This document shows, piece by piece, positions 3,289 to 13,746 of a DNA stretch of 32,326 nucleotides. Origin of the DNA: Bacteroidales bacterium (lineage in GTDB: Bacteria > Bacteroidota > Bacteroidia > Bacteroidales > P3); the NCBI GenBank assembly GCA_017428115.1, contig JAFRRK010000098.1, positions 1-32,326 on the forward strand, written 5' to 3'. A program made the translations under genes and the position numbers. Under the pieces are notes generated by a model, which saw only the letters and a program-made list of their open reading frames with translations, was not told the DNA's origin and did not search any database. Positions within the stretch are counted from its first letter, which is position 1; every line of letters starts with the position of its first letter.

Positions 3289-5154
3289 ATGCCTATAAAG
3301 AGTCTTATTGGCGAGTTGCCCGACATAGTGCGCGATGGCAACCGCGAGGCGGGAGCGATACTAGACCGCCTCAGTTCAGCTAATCGTATCACCCTTCAAA
3401 CCAACGAGGTGGTGCTGCCTGCCAAGGCTAGTGCCAACATACGCTTTGGCACACAAGCATTGCCACTGGCGGAGATGAACCGCCTAATCTATGGCGACAA
3501 CCTGCTGGCCATGCAGGCCCTGCTGGCAGGCGACCCACAGACAGGGCTTCCCTCGCTGCGCTGCAAGGTGGATTTGATATACATCGACCCACCCTTCGAC
3601 AGCAAGGCAGACTACCGCACCAAGCTCACCCTCCCCGGGGGTGACATCAGCCAGAAGCCCACCACCATAGAGCAGTTTGCCTACGCCGACACCTGGAAGG
3701 ACGGCACAGTGAGCTACCTGCGGATGCTCTACCCTCGGCTTGTGTTGATGCGAGAGCTATTGAGTGAGCACGGCAGCATCTATGTCCATATTGACTGGCA
3801 CGTGGGGCACTATGTCAAGGTGCTGATGGACGAGATATTTGGAAAGAACAATTTTGTAAATGAAATAGTATGGCACTATCCATCAATGTCTCGCACTGAT
3901 TCTAACTATCCAAGGAAACACGATGTTCTTTTCTTTTATGTAAAAAATAACGAGTCATATCAATTTGACACACAAAATGACTATGTGAGAGAAAAATATG
4001 CAGCGACAACTGTGACAAGAAGCCAGTATGCTGCTGGTTTCAACAACGATGTGGCTGGATATTTAAAGTCTGACACAAAACTTTGTGATGATGTCTGGAC
4101 AATAGGCCATGTTAAGTCAAAGAACGAAATTGTCAATTACGCCACGCAAAAACCCGAGAAACTTCTTCAACGCATTATTGCTGCCAGCAGCAATGAGGGT
4201 GATTTGGTATGCGACTTCTTCGGGGGCAGCGGCACTACCGCAGCGGTGGCGGAGAGACTAGGACGGCGTTGGATTACGACAGACATAGGCAAGCCCGCCA
4301 CACTAGTAATGCGCAAGCGGTTGATAGACCAAGAGGTGAAGCCGTTCCTCTATCAGGCCATAGGCGACTACCAGAAGGAGATGATGCACGGCACGAGGCT
4401 GTTCCGCAACATCGGGGAGCTGAGCCAGGTGGTGATGCAATTGTATGGTGCGCTACCCTTCACGCCCGAGCAGGTGAGCGACCGCAACTATGGCTATGTG
4501 AAGGACGAGAGGACGCTGGTGTATGTGGACAGCCCCAACAAGCTGACGGGGCGTGCCACCCTGCGCCGCGCCAGCGAAGCCACACAGAGCCTCCTGGGCG
4601 GAGGCTGGAAGAAGGTGGTGGTGCTGGCGTGGAACTTCAGCTACGACATCAGCCAGGCCGTAGAGGAGTATAAGAACACGGTGGAGGTGTTGGTCATCCC
4701 GCCCGACCTGATGGACAAGCTGAAGAAGCAGGGGTTTGCCAAGCTGGTGCAGAGCGGCACGGTAAGGTTCAGCGGATTGCAGTACCTATCGCTGCAGCCC
4801 ATAGAGAAAAAGACGGTGGGCGACAACGATGTGCTCGCCATACGGTTGCAGGACTATGTGCAGCTGTCGCCCGACAGCATCCCCCTTGACGACAAAGACC
4901 GCGAGGCGGTGCGCCGAGTGATGAACGAAGACCCGCTGGCACTGATAGAGTACTGGAGCATCGACCCCGACTACGACGGGCATACCTTCCGCAGCCTGTG
5001 GCAGGACTACCGCGAGAACACGGCCATGGGTCGCGACCCATTGCACTGCGTCTACCACGTCGACCTAACAGTCCCTCACAAGGAGAACAGGGCGGTGTGC
5101 GTCAAGGCAGTGGATGTGTTCGGATTTGAAAGTGTAGTAGTTGAACGAATATAG
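3289..5154 (+). CDS. mod: Type III restriction-modification DNA methyltransferase (Mod)
   Basis: A 621-residue beta-class amino-methyltransferase that would transfer a methyl group from S-adenosylmethionine to adenine in an asymmetric site and give the whole complex its specificity. The catalytic motif DPPF is at residues 100-103 within [20 protein letters not shown]; the AdoMet-binding motif [10 protein letters not shown] lies later, at about 308-317. Catalytic motif before FxGxG is the beta-class order used by type III Mod. The region between (about residues 184-303, DNA 3838-4196) is the target-recognition domain. Its DNA is about 36 percent GC by hand count over 3841-4140, against 57-62 percent in the blocks I counted on either side, which suggests recombinational replacement. 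The C-terminal part (380-621) is the usual Mod extension for dimer and Res contacts. Res begins 10 bp after the stop. Length and motifs look intact, so methylation should be active. Confidence 0.95.
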
Positions 5155-5164
5155 GAGCAACGTT

Positions 5165-7989
5165 ATGCAGTACAATCAAGACAATATATCGCTGCTGCTG
5201 GCGCAGCGGCTGAGCGACATGGTGAACAATGCGTGGGAGAGCGGTGAGATGCTAGAACAGGTAACTCAGGTGACAAGAGAGCTGTTGCAACACTGGTTTT
5301 GCGAGCCATTCACCGAGGAACGCAACATCAACTTCCACATCGGGCAGCGACAAGCCATACTGAATACCATCTACCTGCACGAGGTGGCAGGGGTGCGGAC
5401 GGTGGAGGACAGCTATGCCGCCGCCATTGCTGACGAGATGGGGCAGGCGGACATGGCGATGCTGACACAGGAGAAATACCAACTGCCCAAATATGCGGTG
5501 AAGATGGCCACGGGCACAGGTAAGACATGGGTGATGCATGCCCTGGTGCTGTGGCAGATGCTCAACTCCAGACATACGGGCGGAGAACGGTACACGCAGC
5601 GCTTTCTGCTAATAGCGCCGGGCATCATCGTGTACGAACGGCTGCTGGACGCATATCTGGGCAAGATGGAAAACGGCACACGGCACGCCGAGAAGGGCGA
5701 CCTGCACCGGTACGAAGAGCTGTTCATCCCACCCCAATATCGAGAGGAGGTGTTCAACTTTGTGCAGACCAACACGGTGAGCAAAGAGCAAGGCATAGGG
5801 CGCAACGCATCAGGCGAAGGACTGATAGCCATCACCAACTGGCACCTGTTCCTACAAAAAGAGGACGAGGAGAAGAAGGACATTGTGGACGAACTACTGC
5901 CATTGCGCCCGGGCGTTGCATCTGGCAACGCATTGGACGTATTAGACCGACGATACCTGCGTGGAACAGAGGTGGAATATCTGCATGACCTGGAAAGCCT
6001 GATGGTCATCAACGACGAGGCACACCATGTGCACGAGAACGGCGGCGACGAAGAGGATGTGCAATGGCAGCAGGCGTTGGACTATATACTGCAAGGCAAG
6101 CAATGCCAAGTGCAAGTGGACTTTAGCGCCACCCCCTACGAGCAACGCGGCAGCGGCAGACGGACAAGGAAAGTGTACTTCCCCCATATAGTGGTGGACT
6201 TCGATTTGAAGGATGCCATGACACATGGACTGGTGAAAACGCTGTCACTCGACCAGAGGCAGAGCTTCACAGAGCTGGCCGACCTGGACTATAGCGCCAT
6301 ACGCGAGGGACGCTCGGTGATAGCACTAAGCGAAGGGCAGAAGTTGATGCTGAGGGCTGGGCTGGAACGGCTGAACCGACTGCAGGCAGACTTTGAGGGA
6401 CAGAAGTATCCTAAAATGATGGTGGTGTGCGAGGACACCAAGGTGACACCCCTAGTGGAACAATACCTTATAGCAGAGGGCATGGAGCCGGAGGAGGTGT
6501 TGCGGGTGGACAGCGATGCCAAGGGCAACATGAAAGAAGAAGAATGGCGACGGGTGAGCGAAAGGCTGAGCCACGTGGACGACCATGCAGAGCCAAAGGT
6601 GGTGGTGAGCGTGATGATGCTGCGCGAGGGATTTGACGTGAACAATATCTGCGTCATTGTGCCATTGAGAAGCAGCGAGTCGTCGATACTGCTGGAGCAG
6701 GTGGTGGGGAGGGGCTTACGCCTAATGTGGCGCGAGCCAGAATACAGCGAAGCGAAGAGGGAAAACAGGCAACGCCTGCTGGTAGAGAAACGGGAGCCGC
6801 TGAACTATATGGACATACTGTTCATCGTGGAGCATCCACGGTTTAAAGAGTTTTACGATGAGCTGATAAATGGCGGGCTGGCCGTGGTGGACACCGGCAA
6901 TGCGACTACCAGAGGCATGGGCGACATGCTGATGGCAGAGCTGAAGGAGGACTACCAGAAGTATGACCTGGCATGGTTAAACATACTACAGGACAGTGAG
7001 GAAATACTAGAGCTGTCCTCACTTGAGGTGGAAAAAATGGAGTTGTTTACGGCCTATACGCTGGAGCAGTTGCGGAGGTATCTGGCCACGGAGGGGGAGA
7101 CCTTTGTGTCGCAAGCGGTGGCAATGAAGACCACATTTGGCAAGTTTACGGTCAAGGCAGACTTATTTACGGCAGAGAGCTATCGAGAGTACTTGCAGAA
7201 GTTGCTGAGGACGGTGACACACTTGCAAGTGCACAACATGCCCCTGTTGCAGGTGGGCGAGGCCATGCTGATGCGAACTCTAGACAAATATATCCGCACA
7301 CGGCTGTTTGGGCAGGAGTTTGACCCCTTCGACGGTAACGACTGGAAGATACTGCTGGCCCAGAATGGCGTGGTGACGCAACATATAGTCAAAGTGATGG
7401 CCAGAGAACTGTATGCCCTGCAAAAGGAGGTACAGACAACCGAAGCAATGGCGGAAGAGACCTGGTTCTCGAGTGTGGAGAAGATGCCTGTGAGAGAGCA
7501 GTATTCGTTGGAGATGCAAAAGACCATTTACACACGTACTCCGTTCCCCTCGCATGGGGGCGGGCTAGAGAAGGCCTTTATAGAATTTATCGATGCGGAC
7601 GGAGCAGTAGACCGATGGATAAAAATAAGCGAGACAAGGCACCGCTTTGCATCAATCACCTATATGCGCACCGACGGACTGCTGGCGACCTATCATCCCG
7701 ACTTTATTTTATAGTAGAGACAGAGGATAAGCTGTATTTGGTGGAAACGAAAGGGTCCGACAAAGTGAAAGACCCCAATGTGCAGCAGAAACGACGTGCC
7801 GCAGTGGAATGGTGTGAGAAGATAAACCAGCTGTCAGAAGAGCTGCGCGACAATAGGAAGTGGGAGTATGTGCTGATAGGGGAAGAAGAGTTCTACGGCC
7901 TGTCGACAAATGGCGCTACTTTTGAGGACATTTGCCAGCACTGCCGCATGAGTGCGGCAATGGTGCAAGGGGTGTTGAACTTCGAATAA
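5165..7989 (+). pseudogene. res: Type III restriction endonuclease (Res), frameshifted in the nuclease motif
   Basis: Res is the ATP-dependent helicase/nuclease subunit that works with Mod. I start it at ATG 5165, with AGGAG just upstream and 10 bp after mod, rather than at the TTG at 5141 inside mod. Superfamily 2 motifs are in order: ATGTGKT (115-121), NDEAHH (283-288), VDFSATPYE, and EQVVGRGLRLMW (511 onward). The first frame stops at TAG 7712-7714 after HPDFIL; the neighbouring frame continues with IVETEDKLYLVETKG. The break is a perfect tandem pair TTTAT-TTTAT at 7703-7712. Removing one copy gives 940 codons (939 residues) and the continuous motif HPDFIVETEDKLYLVETKG, a PD...ExK nuclease site (D846, E859, K861). 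As written, the product has 849 residues and lacks ExK, so cleavage should be lost while ATPase motifs stay intact. Confidence 0.9.
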
Positions 7990-7994
7990 CGAAA

Positions 7995-8030
7995 GAAGCT
8001 CCCGACAGGTGCCGGGAGCTTCATTTTGAT
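7995..8030 (+). terminator. Intrinsic terminator after res
   Basis: A perfect 10-bp stem, GAAGCTCCCG (7995-8004) with CGGGAGCTTC (8013-8022), an 8-base loop and the tail ATTTTGAT. It lies between convergent genes and may serve both strands. Confidence 0.8.
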
Positions 8031-8076: not shown

Positions 8077-8943
8077 CTATTTTTTCTTGAATTTGGTAAC
8101 CATCTCGATGTCGTTGGGTTCGGGGTCGTCGGAAATATAGGTTATCTTGAGGAAGGCGGTGTCTTTAAGAAAGTCGATGCTGCCCAATTGCACTTTGACA
8201 ATGTCGAGCCCCGTACGATTGCGAAGGTCGGCGAGGAGCTCGTCGTGGCGTTCGGGCTTGATGAGGTCTATCTTCTCGTAGGTGATTATCTTCTGAGCCT
8301 TACGATTGGACATACCCACGGCCTCAAGCACCCAGATGACAGCTATAAAGATGAGATTGACAGCAATGAACGAGGCATAGCTGGTGGCCATGCCGGCACC
8401 GTTGATGATGCTGATGGCGATGAGGACGAAAAGATAAGTCATTTCGCGAATGGGGAGCTGTTCGGTGCGATAGCGTATCATGCTGAAGATACCAAACAGG
8501 CCAAGGGCTATGCCGACCTCGACTTTCATGTTTTGGAGATTGTAGAGAATAAGGAAGATGGCGGTGGAGAAAAGCATATAGGTAAAGTAGTAGTCGCGAC
8601 GATGGCTCTTGCGGTAATAGAAGAAATGAGTGATAATCCAACAAACGAGGAGGTTGATGCCAAATAGAATGAGCAGCTTGAGGAGGCTGGCAGAATCGTA
8701 GAATGGCAGGCCAAGAAAGTCTATTGTCTGCTCCTCGGCATTGCCAAAGCGGGCAGCAATGTCTTCATTCTGTTCAGTCCCATCGGGGGCCGCAGGCAGA
8801 GACTCGGGGGTTGCCAGCACATCACTCTCATCGGTGGCCATAACTGCTTGTGGCATGAAGTTATCATCAAGGTCTTGTGCCATGACATGAGTGGAGGCGA
8901 CAAGAGCCAGAGAAAGAAAGAGAAATAAACGAATTGATTTCAT
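8077..8943 (-). CDS. DUF4956 multi-pass membrane protein
   Basis: A 288-residue protein. Residues 1-22 look like a cleavable signal peptide (ending VMAQ), followed by an acidic, Pro/Ala-rich segment (about 23-85) and then hydrophobic segments near 88-108, 119-136, 140-157, 168-183 and 187-206. The stretch GIFSMIRYRTEQLPIREMTYLFV is the DUF4956 signature between two helices. Residues 215-288 form a soluble tail (ITYEKIDLIKPERHDELLADLRNRT) with a predicted alpha/beta pattern. DUF4956 genes are frequent neighbours of VTC-domain polyphosphate polymerases; the function is unknown. Its ATG overlaps the stop of the VTC gene in the ATGA arrangement, which indicates coupled translation and perhaps a complex. 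I infer, without proof, that it is the membrane or channel partner of the polymerase, as Vtc1 and the membrane parts of Vtc4 are in yeast. Confidence 0.88.
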   Translation of the reverse strand: MKSIRLFLFLSLALVASTHVMAQDLDDNFMPQAVMATDESDVLATPESLPAAPDGTEQNEDIAARFGNAEEQTIDFLGLPFYDSASLLKLLILFGINLLVCWIITHFFYYRKSHRRDYYFTYMLFSTAIFLILYNLQNMKVEVGIALGLFGIFSMIRYRTEQLPIREMTYLFVLIAISIINGAGMATSYASFIAVNLIFIAVIWVLEAVGMSNRKAQKIITYEKIDLIKPERHDELLADLRNRTGLDIVKVQLGSIDFLKDTAFLKITYISDDPEPNDIEMVTKFKKK

Positions 8944-9725
8944 TTTAAAATTGGGTTTGAAGGGTTTAGGTTTGAAAGCATAATTTTATCAATAAAAAGG
9001 AGTTTGGGTTTGAAGCGATTGCGCTTGGCCGAGGGGTCTGTTAGAGCGGTGCCGATGCAGTATTTGCTCATACGGCGTGGCAGGACGTGGAGCTGGTGTA
9101 GGGCACGTTCGATGTCGCTCATGGGTGCACCCACTTCGTGTTTCACCTCGATGACGAGCAACTTGCTGATGTCGCTGGAGATGCCAGTAGCGCGATTATG
9201 GAAGCATATTTTGCGGTCGATGGTGACGCGTTCGCTCATACCCTTGTCGACAAGGGTGATGCGTTCGAAGCTGTTCTCCAGACAGGCGTGTAGCACGGCG
9301 ACAGGATAAGGGGTGTTTTCGTTGACAAAGGCTGCCACCTCGGGTACGTCGAGACACTTGTCGAACTGATGGACACTGATGGGGATACGCACCTTGCGGG
9401 TCTTTTTCTTATTGTCTTTATTTTTGATTTCGAAGAAGGTGGTATCGGTGGAGCGGTAGGTGCGTACGCGTAGTTTCTGACGATTGAGTTTCTTGTTGTG
9501 GTGCATGGTGTACATGCTAAGGTTGTCAGTATCGAAATACAGGGTACGGTAGGGTGCCAGTGGATTACCCTCGATGTGCTGCACATAATAGTTGGCTGCA
9601 ACGCGCGAGAGGAGTTCTTCGAGTTGGTCGGCCGAGGCCATGTACTTTTGATCCACGCGGTTCATCAGGCGCACGGCCTTCATATTGTCAAGCCCGATAG
9701 GCTGCATTTGGCTTAGAATGTCCAT
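8940..9725 (-). CDS. VTC-domain polyphosphate polymerase-like protein
   Basis: A 261-residue soluble protein that is almost entirely a VTC domain, a triphosphate-tunnel fold. In yeast Vtc4 this domain makes polyphosphate from ATP with metal ions. The expected tunnel residues are present: R23 and K27 in NRVDQKY, the basic strand LNRQKLRVRTYR (R82, K84, R86, R88, R91), E99 and K101 in FFEIKNK, the run KKKTRKVRI, R171 in VTIDRKI, the acidic metal-ligand candidate E193 in LLVIEVKHE, and K221 in MSKYCIG near the end. So an active enzyme is likely, although another nucleotide-polymer or triphosphatase activity cannot be excluded. No membrane helix or SPX domain is present, so any membrane coupling must come from a partner; the DUF4956 gene overlaps its stop by 4 bp. 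It is the fourth gene of a five-gene operon. Confidence 0.9.
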   Translation of the reverse strand: MDILSQMQPIGLDNMKAVRLMNRVDQKYMASADQLEELLSRVAANYYVQHIEGNPLAPYRTLYFDTDNLSMYTMHHNKKLNRQKLRVRTYRSTDTTFFEIKNKDNKKKTRKVRIPISVHQFDKCLDVPEVAAFVNENTPYPVAVLHACLENSFERITLVDKGMSERVTIDRKICFHNRATGISSDISKLLVIEVKHEVGAPMSDIERALHQLHVLPRRMSKYCIGTALTDPSAKRNRFKPKLLFIDKIMLSNLNPSNPILK

Positions 9726-9746
9726 AGATGATTGTATAATGGTTCA

Positions 9747-10160
9747 TCATTTGTAAGAATACTCGAAGGTCTTGGTGCTTTCCAGCTTGCCGCTGGGCTT
9801 GTAGTTGTACTGTTTTTTCTTGGTGCCGTCGGGGTTGTATTCAAACTGTTTGATGCGGACGGGCTTGTTCTTGTCGTCGTATTCCACCTGTTCTTTGCAC
9901 TTGGTGCTGGTGCCCTCGTAGCTGTAGGTGACGCGCTTCTTTTGGCCGTAGGAAGCATATTCAATCTCTTCGATCTTACGTCCCAGATGGTCGTAGGTGA
10001 CCTGATTGTCGAGATAGGGGGTGGTTGAGCCAGCACGGGTGTTCCACTCTTTGACCACAAGGTTTTTCTTGCGCTCGCGCTTAGAGGTGTTGTTGTCTTG
10101 AGCAGAAAGAGTGCCTACGCAGAGGCCCAGAAGCAATAGGATAATAAAATGTTTCTTCAT
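9747..10160 (-). CDS. Small secreted protein with YD-like repeats
   Basis: A 137-residue protein with a clear signal peptide (MKKHFIILLLLGLCVGTLSAQ), so probably periplasmic or surface-exposed. The mature part is short beta-rich repeats with the rhythm Y-D-x-x-G/N-K: VTYDHLGRKIEEIEY, VEYDDKNKPVRIKQFEY, YNPDGTKKKQYNY, YKPSGKLESTKTFEYSY. These resemble single RHS/YD-type or MORN-like beta-hairpins and are strongly basic (many Lys). No enzyme motif is visible. It is third in the operon, 21 bp before the VTC gene and 29 bp after the DUF2490 gene. A lysine-rich exported protein next to a presumed polyanion polymerase could bind the polymer, but that is only inference. I do not recognise a specific family. 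Confidence 0.75.
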   Translation of the reverse strand: MKKHFIILLLLGLCVGTLSAQDNNTSKRERKKNLVVKEWNTRAGSTTPYLDNQVTYDHLGRKIEEIEYASYGQKKRVTYSYEGTSTKCKEQVEYDDKNKPVRIKQFEYNPDGTKKKQYNYKPSGKLESTKTFEYSYK

Positions 10161-10189
10161 GACTGTAGTGGACTAATCGTTATAACTTG

Positions 10190-11038
10190 TTATTTTATAG
10201 AGTAGGTGTAGCCTACCGTTATCCAACCTTTGAAACCTTTTTCGTAAGTGTATGACTTTAGTTTTGTTCCATCCGAATTAGCATCGAGCACTTTATCCGT
10301 CACGCGGTCTAGTAGTATGGCCACATCAAGGCTACTGGCACGTGAGAGGCGGTAGTCGAAACCTAGTGAGCCACGGATGCGGTTGAGGTATGCACCCGAC
10401 CATCCGTCGATAAACCAGCCTGCATCACCTTTGATGTAGAAGATACCATCGTCGTAATAGCCCCATGTGTCGGTAGCGGTATTGTAGACGGCTCTGATGA
10501 CAGGAGCGTTAAGGGTGTTGCGTAGCTCGAGGTATGCATATGGCTCAATGCGACGGAAACCCTTGTAGGATAGTTTTAAGCGAGATTTCAAGGTAAGGGC
10601 TGTGCGAGGGTTTTGATATTCGTTCATGTCGCCAGAACGGTAGGTGGCCTGGAAACGTTCCTTGAGAGAGAGACGCCAATCGCCGAAGCGAACCATTCCA
10701 GTTGCATCAAACATCAAACGGTGGCGGGAGGATTTGAAAGTACTATTGTCACTGTCGTAGGGGTTAATCATGGCATAACCTAGCCCCAGCTTAAGGTAAT
10801 CGTTCAATTTGTAGGTGACACCCAATGAGGTGTGAAAGCGTCCAAAAGAGGAGAAGTTGTCGACCATACGTATTTCCTCCTCCAGTTCAAGATGCAGCCT
10901 ACGCACCAGTTTCTTGTCGAGTGTGAATGATAAGCGTCCGCCTAGTTCTGGGTCAAGGCCTACCTCGGTTTGTGCATACACGGGAGACCCCATCAGCCAC
11001 ATTAAGCATAAAAGACTTATTAAAACATATTTCTTCAT
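10190..11038 (-). CDS. DUF2490 outer-membrane beta-barrel protein
   Basis: A 282-residue protein with a signal peptide (ending SPVYAQ) and a mature part made of alternating-hydrophobicity strands, ending in aromatic GWITVGYTYSIK as outer-membrane barrels do. Family features of DUF2490 visible here are the start (E-x-x-LxFTLDKKLVRRLHLELEEEIR), then SSFGRFHTSLGVTYKLNDYLKLGLGY, and the arginine-containing segments SSRHRLMFDATG and RLSLKERFQATYR. DUF2490 proteins are predicted barrels with about ten or more strands and no known substrate. It lies between the lipoprotein gene (30 bp upstream) and the small secreted protein gene (29 bp downstream), so it is almost surely cotranscribed. In this operon it could be the outer-membrane exit or an anchoring partner; that is inference. 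Confidence 0.85.
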   Translation of the reverse strand: MKKYVLISLLCLMWLMGSPVYAQTEVGLDPELGGRLSFTLDKKLVRRLHLELEEEIRMVDNFSSFGRFHTSLGVTYKLNDYLKLGLGYAMINPYDSDNSTFKSSRHRLMFDATGMVRFGDWRLSLKERFQATYRSGDMNEYQNPRTALTLKSRLKLSYKGFRRIEPYAYLELRNTLNAPVIRAVYNTATDTWGYYDDGIFYIKGDAGWFIDGWSGAYLNRIRGSLGFDYRLSRASSLDVAILLDRVTDKVLDANSDGTKLKSYTYEKGFKGWITVGYTYSIK

Positions 11039-11068
11039 ATCATCATTGTGTTTTAAACAGAATATTAT

Positions 11069-12598
11069 TTAGTGTCTTCCTGGGCCTCCACCACTATTGC
11101 CGCCACTGTAGGTAGAGAGGGTAACCTCACTGCCGCCACTACAAGAGGTATATCCGTAGCCATTCCAAAAACTGGTGCCGCTGCCAGTGACACCCGACTT
11201 GAGGGAGGGGCTATCGGTGGTGTAGACCACCATTGGAGCTCCCATGTTGCTGTTGGACGGGACTTTGAAAGCAAAAGCTACAGTGGTGCCGTTGTAAAGG
11301 GCGTACCAAGTGCCTTTGCTGTAGGATGAAGCCTGTTTTGCAGTTCCACCTGATACGCTGGCACCCTGCTCTAAGCCGCCAATAGCAACAATATTACCTC
11401 CGGTGATATAGAGTTGTTTGTTATCTTCAGTGTTGGCATCGAGGGCTACTTCTGCACCACTAGTCGAGATGGCAAGGAGATTACCGCCTTTAATATACAA
11501 GTTGCCATTAGCATCGATACCGTCGTTGCCTGTAGAGTAAGCCATGACATGGCCACCACTGATGGTAAGGTCGGAAGAGGAATTGATTGCATCGTCTGAG
11601 GAGGTTGCAAACACATAGCCTCCACTGATGGTGAGCTCTGACTTGGTTTCAATAGCCTCATGGCTGCTAGCACTGACATTGAGTGTTCCACCCGTGATAT
11701 TGATATTGCCATCGAATTTGATGCCTTTTGCGGCTACACTGTTATCGTTAGAGCTTTGCCCACCGCCACCAGGTCCACCGCCAAAACCGCCACTACTGGA
11801 GCCGAAATTGGAACCCGTGACAGTGATGTCGACAGTGCCTCCGGCGAAGGTGGCTGAGCCATCGCCACATATGCCCTTTGCCCCAGTTCCTGAACTGGTG
11901 ACAGTAAGTGTGCCGTCGATGATACGGAAGGCATCCTTTCCTTTCATTCCAGCCACTTTGGTAGTGTCGCCATTACTGACAAAAGTGCTAGCAGTGCAAT
12001 TGATGGTAATGGTGCCGGACGAAATGGTCAGGTTGTCGTCAGTCACTATACCACTCTTACCTTTGGCAAGAACAGTAAGGCTGCCGCTACCACTGAACAA
12101 TAAGGAACCTTCGGCAAAGAGAGTACCTTTTTCGTCCTCATCACTAGGAGTGCTACTATACTTAGAGCCATCGGAGAGTGTACTGCTTCCGTTGAGAACG
12201 ATATAAGAAGGCTCATTGCTCTGGATATTCAAGGCCGCACCGCTGGTGTTGGTGATGCTGGCACTGCTGAGGACAATAGCCTGCTTGGTATCACTATATA
12301 TCTTCAAGAATCCATTAGAAGTGGAACCGCTGACATTATATTGCACCTTCTCAGAACCAGTGTTGGTGATAGTTGCACCAGCAGAGCTGATGTTTAGCTC
12401 TTGGGAATCGCCTTCTCCAGACACAGAGACACCATCCGAAGAGTAGACAATAGTGATAGTGCGGTCGAATTCGGTGTCAGAATAGCTGCCGTCGTCGCTA
12501 CTGCCAGAGTCAGCATCATTGGTAGTTGTAATGTTGTCCTTCTGACAACCTGCCATGAGAATCAGGCCCATAATCAATAACAAATGTAATTGTTTCAT
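11069..12598 (-). CDS. Cthe_2159-like carbohydrate-binding lipoprotein
   Basis: A 509-residue lipoprotein. I start it at ATG 12598 because the next residues form a lipoprotein signal (MKQLHLLLIMGLILMAGC, lipidated C18); a longer start eight codons upstream would spoil it. After a Ser/Asp-rich linker come repeated beta-helix-like rungs: ATITNTGSEKVQY, SGSGSLTVLAKGKSGI, ISGGYVFATSSDDAINS, ISGGHVMAYSTGNDGID, IKGGNLLAIS, ITGGNIVAIGG. This is the pattern of Cthe_2159-type 'carbohydrate-binding domain-containing' proteins, whose Clostridium thermocellum founder binds acidic polysaccharide or cellulose and adopts a calcium-binding beta-helix. An insert GGFGGGPGGGG sits at mid-protein. It is the first gene of the operon and is divergent from the AraC regulator. 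Its surface localisation fits a polymer-binding or scaffold role. Confidence 0.85.
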   Translation of the reverse strand: MKQLHLLLIMGLILMAGCQKDNITTTNDADSGSSDDGSYSDTEFDRTITIVYSSDGVSVSGEGDSQELNISSAGATITNTGSEKVQYNVSGSTSNGFLKIYSDTKQAIVLSSASITNTSGAALNIQSNEPSYIVLNGSSTLSDGSKYSSTPSDEDEKGTLFAEGSLLFSGSGSLTVLAKGKSGIVTDDNLTISSGTITINCTASTFVSNGDTTKVAGMKGKDAFRIIDGTLTVTSSGTGAKGICGDGSATFAGGTVDITVTGSNFGSSSGGFGGGPGGGGQSSNDNSVAAKGIKFDGNINITGGTLNVSASSHEAIETKSELTISGGYVFATSSDDAINSSSDLTISGGHVMAYSTGNDGIDANGNLYIKGGNLLAISTSGAEVALDANTEDNKQLYITGGNIVAIGGLEQGASVSGGTAKQASSYSKGTWYALYNGTTVAFAFKVPSNSNMGAPMVVYTTDSPSLKSGVTGSGTSFWNGYGYTSCSGGSEVTLSTYSGGNSGGGPGRH

Positions 12599-12782
12599 AG
12601 TTCTATTTTCTATTATTACCATAAATAGTGATTTTTCATGCTATCTTAAAATACTGATGTTTTTATATTGGTGGACTAGGATTTATCACTGGATTGCCAA
12701 GGTATGGGAGACACAACTAGTAGTCGTAAAATCAAGAATATAGAGCCACTTATTATAATAAAGTGAAGCCTAATTAATTTTG

Positions 12783-12888: not shown

Positions 12889-13746
12889 ATGAAAACTAAG
12901 ATACAGAAACAGCACCCAATGCTCCTTAATTTACATAAAATCAAGGAAAACGGCATTGTAATACTAGATGATGTCCGGGGGCTTCCATCGGGTGACGAGT
13001 CATACACGTCGCCAGAATATGTCATTTGTATTGGACATCAGGGCAATATGCAACTGTGCTATGACGACTATCCCGACCATTCTGAGGCTAGAACTGTGGC
13101 CGTCGTATTCCCAAATCACACTCTGAGAAAGGTGAGCCTGAGTGACAATTACCTGGCCACATTAATTGTTGTCGACTCCACGATGTTAAACGACCCATTG
13201 CTAAATATTATCAATCAGATGCGCTACCGATACGAACCACACCCGTGGGTTAAATTAGACCGACACCAATACGGTATAATCATGAAACTAGTTGGTGTAA
13301 TGCGCGAAACATCCACCATCAATATTGACGACTGTCGGCTACTACTGACTCGACAACTAGAATACCTTATGCGTCTGCTGGGATACTATCGGGATATTAA
13401 CCTACAGGAACCGCATTCTTGCCATCGAGTCAGTACCAAGTTCCTCAACGACCTCGCCAATCATTTCCGCAAGCATCGCGACGTGGCATTCTATGCCGAA
13501 AAGGCCTGTTTGTCGACCAAACATTTCAGCACCGTCATCAAACAGGAAACGGGACATACAGCAGCATGGTGGATCCATACACAAGTAGTTAACGAAGCAA
13601 AAATGCTTCTTCACATGCGAAACGACCTTAATATCCAGGCCATTGCCGACTTGTTGGGATTCAATGACCAATCTACCTTCAGCCGCTACTTTCAACGCGA
13701 AATAGGACTTTACCCCACAGAATATCGCAAGCAGTTAAAAGGATAG
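12889..13746 (+). CDS. AraC/XylS-family transcriptional regulator
   Basis: A 285-residue regulator. Residues 1-165 form an N-terminal sensor part with a beta-rich cupin-like segment (PEYVICIGHQGNMQLCYDDY, AVVFPNHTLRKVSLSDNYLATLIVVD). The last 100 residues are the two helix-turn-helix units of AraC proteins: FLNDLANHFRKHRDVAFYAE with CLSTKHFSTVIKQETG as the first, and LNIQAIADLLGFNDQSTFSRYFQREIGLYPTEYR as the second, ending in the usual G-x-x-P-x-x-Y-R. No membrane segment, so it is cytosolic. It is transcribed away from the five-gene envelope operon with 290 bp between, making that operon its most natural target. The ligand is unknown. The start is uncertain between ATG 12889 and ATG 12919 because the -7 box nearly touches the first. 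Confidence 0.92.
   Translation: MKTKIQKQHPMLLNLHKIKENGIVILDDVRGLPSGDESYTSPEYVICIGHQGNMQLCYDDYPDHSEARTVAVVFPNHTLRKVSLSDNYLATLIVVDSTMLNDPLLNIINQMRYRYEPHPWVKLDRHQYGIIMKLVGVMRETSTINIDDCRLLLTRQLEYLMRLLGYYRDINLQEPHSCHRVSTKFLNDLANHFRKHRDVAFYAEKACLSTKHFSTVIKQETGHTAAWWIHTQVVNEAKMLLHMRNDLNIQAIADLLGFNDQSTFSRYFQREIGLYPTEYRKQLKG

Follow-up and report, generated by a model that had tools for sequence, protein, structure and literature searches.

What might a bacterium do with an enzyme resembling the polyphosphate polymerase of the yeast vacuole if the gene for that enzyme stands in one operon with genes for a multi-pass membrane protein and for several proteins of the cell envelope? The question is raised by a 32,326-nucleotide stretch of DNA (here, the window), i.e., contig JAFRRK010000098.1 of Bacteroidales bacterium assembly GCA_017428115.1, which carries a VTC-type gene directly followed by a DUF4956 gene at the end of such an operon. 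As argued below, the best reading may be that the operon specifies a polymerase-translocator of the VTC kind which exports polyphosphate, a reading that we judge to be about evenly poised between right and wrong. The locus, that is, would be a VTC-kind system with novel envelope partners.

The operon

Five minus-strand open reading frames (ORFs) are confirmed in the window between 12598 and 8077, at positions matching those of a preliminary description of this DNA. The first encodes a Cthe_2159-family lipoprotein (11069..12598, with the first ATG at 12622; PF14262, E 9e-37) and the second a DUF2490 protein, probably an outer-membrane beta-barrel (10190..11038; PF10677, E 5e-17). Next, and directly before the VTC gene, comes a small, basic, secreted protein, here SEC (9747..10160), which is Lys-rich and has a signal-peptide-like start. 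The VTC-type triphosphate-tunnel enzyme, a probable polymerase (8940..9725; PF09359, E 5e-28), and the multi-pass membrane protein DUF4956, a probable translocator (8077..8943; PF16316, E 8e-56), complete the set. Gaps between genes are 30, 29 and 21 bp, and the VTC and DUF4956 genes overlap by 4 bp. ORF calls and Pfam matches together bear out what had been claimed of this arrangement, i.e., five same-strand genes, closely spaced, with one 4-bp overlap.

Linkage of VTC and DUF4956

Conservation was followed in two sets of loci. The 69-locus set consists of the window plus 68 fetched loci with their flanks, while the 80-locus set consists of loci from genome contigs; the two overlap, as drawn from the same species, and some loci end early at contig ends. 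VTC is followed directly by DUF4956 in 66 of the 69 loci, the three exceptions being L123 (different order), L125 (an intervening gene) and L128 (contig end), and VTC adjoins DUF4956 in 79 of the 80. In a phylum sample of 198 genomes, VTC is found in 37 and DUF4956 in 59, with DUF4956 present in all 37 VTC genomes versus 22 of the 161 others (Fisher p 5e-25, a value which ignores the relatedness of genomes). The two families match the same three of 14 control genomes as well, those of Bacteroides ihuae, Corynebacterium glutamicum and Methanosarcina acetivorans. Among plasmids, 15 records have both genes, with 16 having DUF4956 and 16 having VTC. Linkage of VTC and DUF4956 is beyond chance, and this near-constant pairing supports the suggestion of the preliminary description that DUF4956 serves as the inner-membrane partner of VTC.

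What surrounds the pair is less constant. Of 23 same-genus loci, 14 carry all five families (with two of the five on the opposite strand in L041), as do, by a count from a list of patterns, 23 of the 80 loci; the exact order of the window, from Cthe_2159 through DUF2490, SEC and VTC to DUF4956, is seen in just 4 of the 80. The preliminary description had proposed a search for conserved order of all five families, and that order is not conserved. A fixed five-gene order was rejected as the unit under study since both order and lipoprotein vary among loci. In the 80-locus set, DUF4956 is present in 79 loci, SEC in 68, DUF2490 in 65, Cthe_2159 in 31 and CARB, another often lipoprotein-like family, in 32; SEC is found as well in 27 of the 69. 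Relative to other slots of the same 69 loci, SEC (23 of 23 copies) and DUF2490 (21 of 28) are enriched next to the core, while Cthe_2159 is not (4 of 15 copies, p 0.18). Loci commonly share a core of SEC-VTC-DUF4956 together with DUF2490, and the lipoprotein is variable.

The VTC-type enzyme

When a profile of 39 VTC proteins was compared with the PDB, the five best matches were all Vtc4 chains (E 2e-19 to 8e-14). The preliminary description had the tunnel residues as intact, which is mostly so: ten of twelve Vtc4 residues examined are kept in the window protein, namely K200, R264, R266, K281, K294, R361, R373, E426, K428 and K458, where the register was mapped by hand from the profile alignment. 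Each of the ten is present in at least 37 of 39 diverse VTC proteins and in at least 79 of 80 others, these sets overlapping, and the lysine at the catalytic K458 position is kept in all 118 proteins without a gap there. Four positions that are basic in Vtc4 are glutamate in polyphosphatase tunnel enzymes (PMC4641920). By a presumed register, R23 and K195 of the window protein are basic at two further positions of this patch, as in Vtc4, while D25 falls at a third. The acidic glutamate patch for metal 2 that is described for TTM tri/polyphosphatases of the CYTH type (same source) is not matched, as D25 alone is acidic among the three mapped positions. With R23 and K195 basic, though D25 is acidic, the window VTC resembles a polymerase, albeit with one peculiarity. 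No SPX domain was detected in it by Pfam scan.

The membrane partner

Averaged over 141 DUF4956 proteins, hydropathy shows four to five hydrophobic stretches followed by a hydrophilic tail. Basic loops lie around residues 111-116 and 157-166, and R157 and R159 never vary among the 141 aligned proteins. The channel of yeast VTC is lined by basic residues from its first membrane helices, and when these were changed the vacuole lost its polyphosphate store (PMC9911596). The basic membrane residues of DUF4956 would resemble these in function only, without homology; indeed, no credible relative of DUF4956 was found in the PDB (best E 0.55). The window DUF4956, at 288 amino acids, has a signal-peptide-like N-terminal extension, many relatives from the genus being about 237 amino acids in length.

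Envelope proteins of the operon

KdgM and the phosphate-selective porins O/P are outer-membrane barrels for anions, and the best PDB match of the DUF2490 family profile is KdgM (E 0.005). DUF2490 has conserved Lys/Arg residues two apart (K126/R128, K151/R153 and R220/R222), which is the spacing that would be expected for one face of a strand. The window DUF2490 has an isoelectric point (pI) of 9.3. Across the 80-locus set, the median mature pI is 9.2 for SEC (n=68) and 9.3 for DUF2490 (n=65), versus 5.9 for secreted-like background proteins (n=187), a comparison among homologous proteins with a background that is not fold-matched and with crude signal cutting. SEC has no Pfam family above cut-off.

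The first gene product had been described simply as a beta-helix-like lipoprotein. It belongs, however, to a named family of carbohydrate-binding beta-helix proteins, Cthe_2159 (PF14262), with a solved relative, PDB 4peu (E 2e-10). Its lipobox reads LMAGC and is followed by QKDN. The surface-export signal of Bacteroidota lipoproteins has been given as C-X-K-(D/E)2 (PMC5080379), and the CQKDN of the window comes near to it, with one acid where that signal has two. Among 50 sequences of its family, taken from overlapping sets, 28 bear a lipobox; of these, 19 read C-X-K-D and 10 fit C-X-K-(D/E)2 fully. Cellulose and polygalacturonic acid are ligands of Cthe_2159 proteins (PMC6712302).

Envelope-crossing neighbours in other lineages

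Genes downstream of the core were scanned at 87 loci. Of these, 67 come from the 69-locus set, from which L128 and the window itself were left aside, while in the other 20 (L242-L261) DUF4956 stands without VTC; these last cover 19 of the 22 VTC-less genomes as well as that of L261. A same-strand gene within 250 bp is present at 67 of the 87 and absent at 20. The 66 such genes that were scanned against Pfam include 17 DUF2490, 15 HlyD_D23, 3 CotH, 3 Cthe_2159, 2 phytase-like and 1 OEP. HlyD and TolC-type proteins are parts of efflux systems. Within VTC loci, HlyD-like adaptors are found in 20 of 69 and DUF2490 in 30 of 69, with no overlap. Only L104, L107, L122 and L123 among VTC loci have candidate HlyD genes downstream; the commoner adaptor-like family of these loci sits instead upstream of VTC (15 loci), and its profile partly matches RND adaptors such as AcrA, and EmrA, at E 5e-8 to 5e-4. 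Adaptor-like genes are core-adjacent in 16 of 17 and 3 of 3 copies, an enrichment that is partly circular as these neighbours themselves went into the profiles.

TolC-type channels and porins are encountered as well. L123 reads CotH-DUF4956-HlyD-OEP-VTC-CotH, where OEP is a TolC-type channel, the one such case among VTC loci, and L246, which is without VTC, reads adaptor-like gene, DUF4956, OEP. Porin O/P follows DUF4956 without adjoining VTC in Pseudoalteromonas (E 2e-47) and in L261 (E 3e-7), the L261 genome carrying VTC elsewhere. In 12 of the 20 loci with DUF4956 alone the order is DUF4956, HlyD, then an unclassified protein of about 410 amino acids, which suggests a different cargo or an unrecognised polymerase. 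What is new here is that DUF4956 adjoins envelope-crossing parts of several unrelated kinds, differing by lineage. The DUF2490 barrel fits as an exit because other lineages place HlyD-like adaptors beside VTC-DUF4956 and because porin O/P or HlyD adjoins lone DUF4956.

Three observations on these neighbours may be set apart. The protein of about 410 amino acids was considered as a TolC and not counted, as the member scanned has no Pfam family and a partial TolC-type match of 82% probability. A protein of about 340 amino acids follows VTC-less DUF4956 in two loci (L245:9419-10441 and L248:7842-8864) and by eye resembles CotH-type kinases; the L245 copy has no Pfam family. A repeat-rich family lies directly upstream of lone DUF4956 in L244 (7250-7972) and L247, with MORN_2 found in 2 of 34 upstream genes scanned.

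Phosphate context

The preliminary description held that no ppk-type enzyme is involved. This is supported in that PPK1, PPK2 and PPX have no match in any of 37 genus genomes, which are 67-100% complete, 23 of them with VTC, and which include the window's own genome at 80% completeness. Across 61 genomes searched, PPK1 is found in 16, PPK2 in 8 and PPX in 15 (14 above cut-off), with VTC in 32 of 61 relatives' genomes. Because no known cytosolic recycler of polyphosphate was found, an exported polymer makes more sense than a stored, cytosolic one, though the genus may possess recycling enzymes of kinds not yet known. A 2026 paper (PMC13318637), in its introduction, names VTC4 for microbial eukaryotes only and PPK enzymes for bacteria.

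Phosphate genes stand near the pair in other lineages. All three alphaproteobacterial pairs, i.e., those of Shinella (by annotation), Aminobacter and Nitratireductor (both by Pfam), read DUF4956-VTC and then a phytase-like gene, with a PHO4 phosphate transporter between pair and phytase-like gene in Nitratireductor. Of two Deinococcus pairs, that of Deinococcus QL22 has an opposite-strand acid phosphatase and phn genes nearby, and that of Deinococcus taeanensis has the order CotH-VTC-DUF4956. Plasmid neighbourhoods come from the 6 of 16 DUF4956 records that were opened.

A proposed polyphosphate exporter and its alternatives

How might such a set operate? The operon would be a VTC-kind polymerase-translocator set into a Gram-negative envelope. 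Cytosolic VTC would polymerise phosphate from ATP, as the kept Vtc4 residues suggest, with DUF4956, as its near-constant pairing suggests, binding VTC and moving the nascent chain over the inner membrane. The basic SEC and the basic DUF2490 barrel could then conduct the polyanion through periplasm and outer membrane, and the Cthe_2159 lipoprotein might, more speculatively, hold or organise polymer outside, perhaps via Ca2+. Other lineages have HlyD-like adaptors beside the VTC-DUF4956 core, in one case together with a TolC-type channel, and VTC-less DUF4956 is found with HlyD proteins or with porin O/P. More broadly, and more tentatively, VTC-DUF4956 might be an old and modular machine by which bacteria and archaea secrete polyphosphate, coupling its synthesis to passage of the inner membrane and joined in each lineage to that lineage's outer-membrane exit, with some gut Bacteroidota that seem to lack PPK1, PPK2 and PPX coating themselves with polyphosphate or releasing it; of this larger claim we are rather more doubtful than persuaded. 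If true, gut commensals would bear at their surface a polyanion that binds metals, and the polyphosphate machine of the yeast vacuole would have a bacterial cousin in a genus in which the usual bacterial polyphosphate enzymes went undetected. This bears upon how bacterial polyphosphate leaves cells and upon the role of bacterial VTC proteins, and both questions become testable now that the membrane partner has a name and relatives are known from Bacteroides and Parabacteroides in culture.

A number of observations weigh against polyphosphate export as just outlined. Within the enzyme, Vtc4 R253 is replaced by His, and K455 by Arg at a position variable among relatives. D25 is acidic (D or E) in 119 of 119 VTC proteins, again by a presumed register, at a position that is Thr in Vtc4 and an acidic-patch Glu in TTM polyphosphatases. 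The linkage is not strict: L174, with VTC at 8995-9759, is the sole exception among the 80 loci and its genome has no DUF4956 match; 22 of the 59 DUF4956 genomes are without VTC, such that DUF4956 is not specific to VTC; plasmid records of Pseudoalteromonas (DUF4956 only) and Streptomyces (VTC only) contradict strict linkage; and VTC has no match in 14 of the 37 genus genomes, 6 of those being 93-98% complete. On the envelope side, the lipoproteins here are acidic, that of the window having a mature pI of about 4.4, and the KdgM match is weak, with KdgM named for a sugar polymer. At least 11 of the 15 downstream HlyD matches, and both cases of porin O/P, are from loci without VTC beside DUF4956, while the upstream adaptor family has no above-cut-off Pfam match in L119, L114, L092 and L246. 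The separation of DUF2490 from adaptors follows lineage, such that it may reflect few events, and two of the 80 loci, L194 and L224, have DUF2490 plus an adaptor-like gene, 3-9 kb from the core.

Could the polymer be a sugar instead? The operon might serve an acidic exopolysaccharide, or some step in the handling of polysaccharide, with VTC and DUF4956 being accessory or energising while barrel and Cthe_2159 protein handle a uronic-acid polymer. The binding preferences of Cthe_2159 proteins point this way, as does the barrel's best structural match being to a porin for oligogalacturonate, as do CotH-polymerase-DUF4956 sets flanking Gram-positive Pel clusters (PMC7112168), and in 5 of 69 loci a cluster that by eye is like family-2 glycosyltransferases is no more than seven genes away. 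Cthe_2159 is nevertheless absent from most of the 80 loci, the alphaproteobacterial neighbours are phosphate genes, and no glycosyltransferase, lyase or SusCD is seen among the 25 commonest of 50 Pfam families from the 66 downstream genes, a minority of the neighbour clusters of the 69 loci having been identified. We consider a sugar polymer unlikely. Unlikely as well, if a shade more so, is that VTC is a hydrolase or a regulatory triphosphate-binding protein, with DUF4956 and its envelope partners moving something else. The acid that D25 retains at one acidic-patch position would suit a hydrolase, TTM enzymes have many activities (PMC4641920), and DUF4956 without VTC is often beside HlyD; against this stand the basic R23 and K195, the universally kept catalytic lysine and the exclusively Vtc4 best matches.

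VTC-DUF4956 might also supply polyphosphate or another phosphoryl donor beyond the inner membrane, where ATP is scarce, for secreted CotH-family kinases, the kinase in the present case being encoded elsewhere. In 23 of 69 loci a CotH-containing cluster (two members checked by Pfam) is no more than seven genes from VTC; of 71 upstream genes 34 were scanned, and CotH is matched in 5 of them, besides the three downstream genes and the Deinococcus taeanensis arrangement noted above. CotH is found in 20 of 32 VTC genomes versus 10 of 29 others (p 0.04), the window's own genome among those with a CotH gene, there on another contig (C24). Yet there is no CotH in the window operon, 12 of the 32 VTC genomes are without a CotH match, and we know of no CotH protein that uses polyphosphate, which together leave a donor role rather improbable. 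CotH was considered separately as a Bacteroidales neighbour and dropped, as all 12 profile matches in the 80-locus set were below 37 bits. Very improbable, lastly, is phosphate or polyphosphate uptake and storage, i.e., a barrel importing anions and VTC-DUF4956 storing phosphate in the periplasm, with no export. For uptake speak the porin O/P beside VTC-less DUF4956 and the PHO4 transporter and phytase-like genes beside VTC-DUF4956, all in other lineages; HlyD and TolC-type partners are, however, efflux parts, and the genus genomes have no Ppx match for recovering stored polyphosphate.

Relation to known systems

A close likeness for the proposed polyphosphate exporter is yeast VTC (Vtc4 with Vtc1/Vtc3), which shares the tunnel-domain family, gives the best PDB match and has most of the same active-site residues. 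Unlike in yeast, no SPX domain is found in the window protein, the membrane part comes from a separate family for which the PDB shows no relative, and the target would be the cell exterior rather than a vacuole, with outer-membrane and surface parts added. KdgM, as the best match of DUF2490, is a weak likeness since DUF2490 is its own Pfam family, and porin O/P follows DUF4956 in two loci, neither with VTC adjoining. HlyD-TolC tripartite exporters are called to mind by adaptor-like genes in VTC loci of other lineages and by HlyD plus OEP in L123, while the window operon has neither adaptor nor TolC gene.

The preliminary description took this system to be undescribed, which requires qualification: in 2020, CotH, poly-phosphate polymerase, DUF4956 and DUF4832 genes were reported to flank Gram-positive Pel clusters (PMC7112168), which leaves the claim only partly right. 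Those accessory genes include a VTC-type polymerase beside DUF4956; relative to those groups, the window operon is without CotH and adds DUF2490, SEC and Cthe_2159. A Clostridium locus has polyphosphate polymerase and CotH genes as well (PMC11677781). DUF4956 and DUF2490 are listed together for Bacteroides thetaiotaomicron too, as BT3498-BT3499, which occupy one row of an iron-deficiency expression table and, in that table, are listed without function (PMC10434189). No work on the function of the bacterial VTC-DUF4956 pair was found in the open-licence literature, subscription papers being mostly outside of that coverage.

Other features of the window

The host genome is 2.78 Mb, with one VTC found, and the window is its contig C93. 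Its closest named relatives are Bacteroidales metagenome genomes, mostly ruminant-titled, with Parabacteroides sp. 52 and Bacteroides salyersiae among the more distant, and the host is probably a gut bacterium of ruminant origin. A terminator-like hairpin at 7995..8022 on the minus strand (12-pair stem, 8 of them G-C, with a T-rich tail) lies just 3' of the DUF4956 stop and would close the operon; 9 terminator-like sites were observed in all versus 4.3 expected. A promoter scan found 6 sites versus 6.9 expected and was set aside. Divergent from the operon, on the plus strand, is an AraC-type gene (12889..13746; HTH_18, E 2e-19), a candidate regulator, homologues of which occur anywhere in the locus in 11 of 80 and 4 of 69 relatives' loci. 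Beyond the hairpin, an ORF for a type III restriction-like helicase (5141-7714) overlaps a 124-amino-acid ORF (7615-7989) in a different frame, and this pair, spanning 5141-7989, may be one frame-changed gene or two genes.

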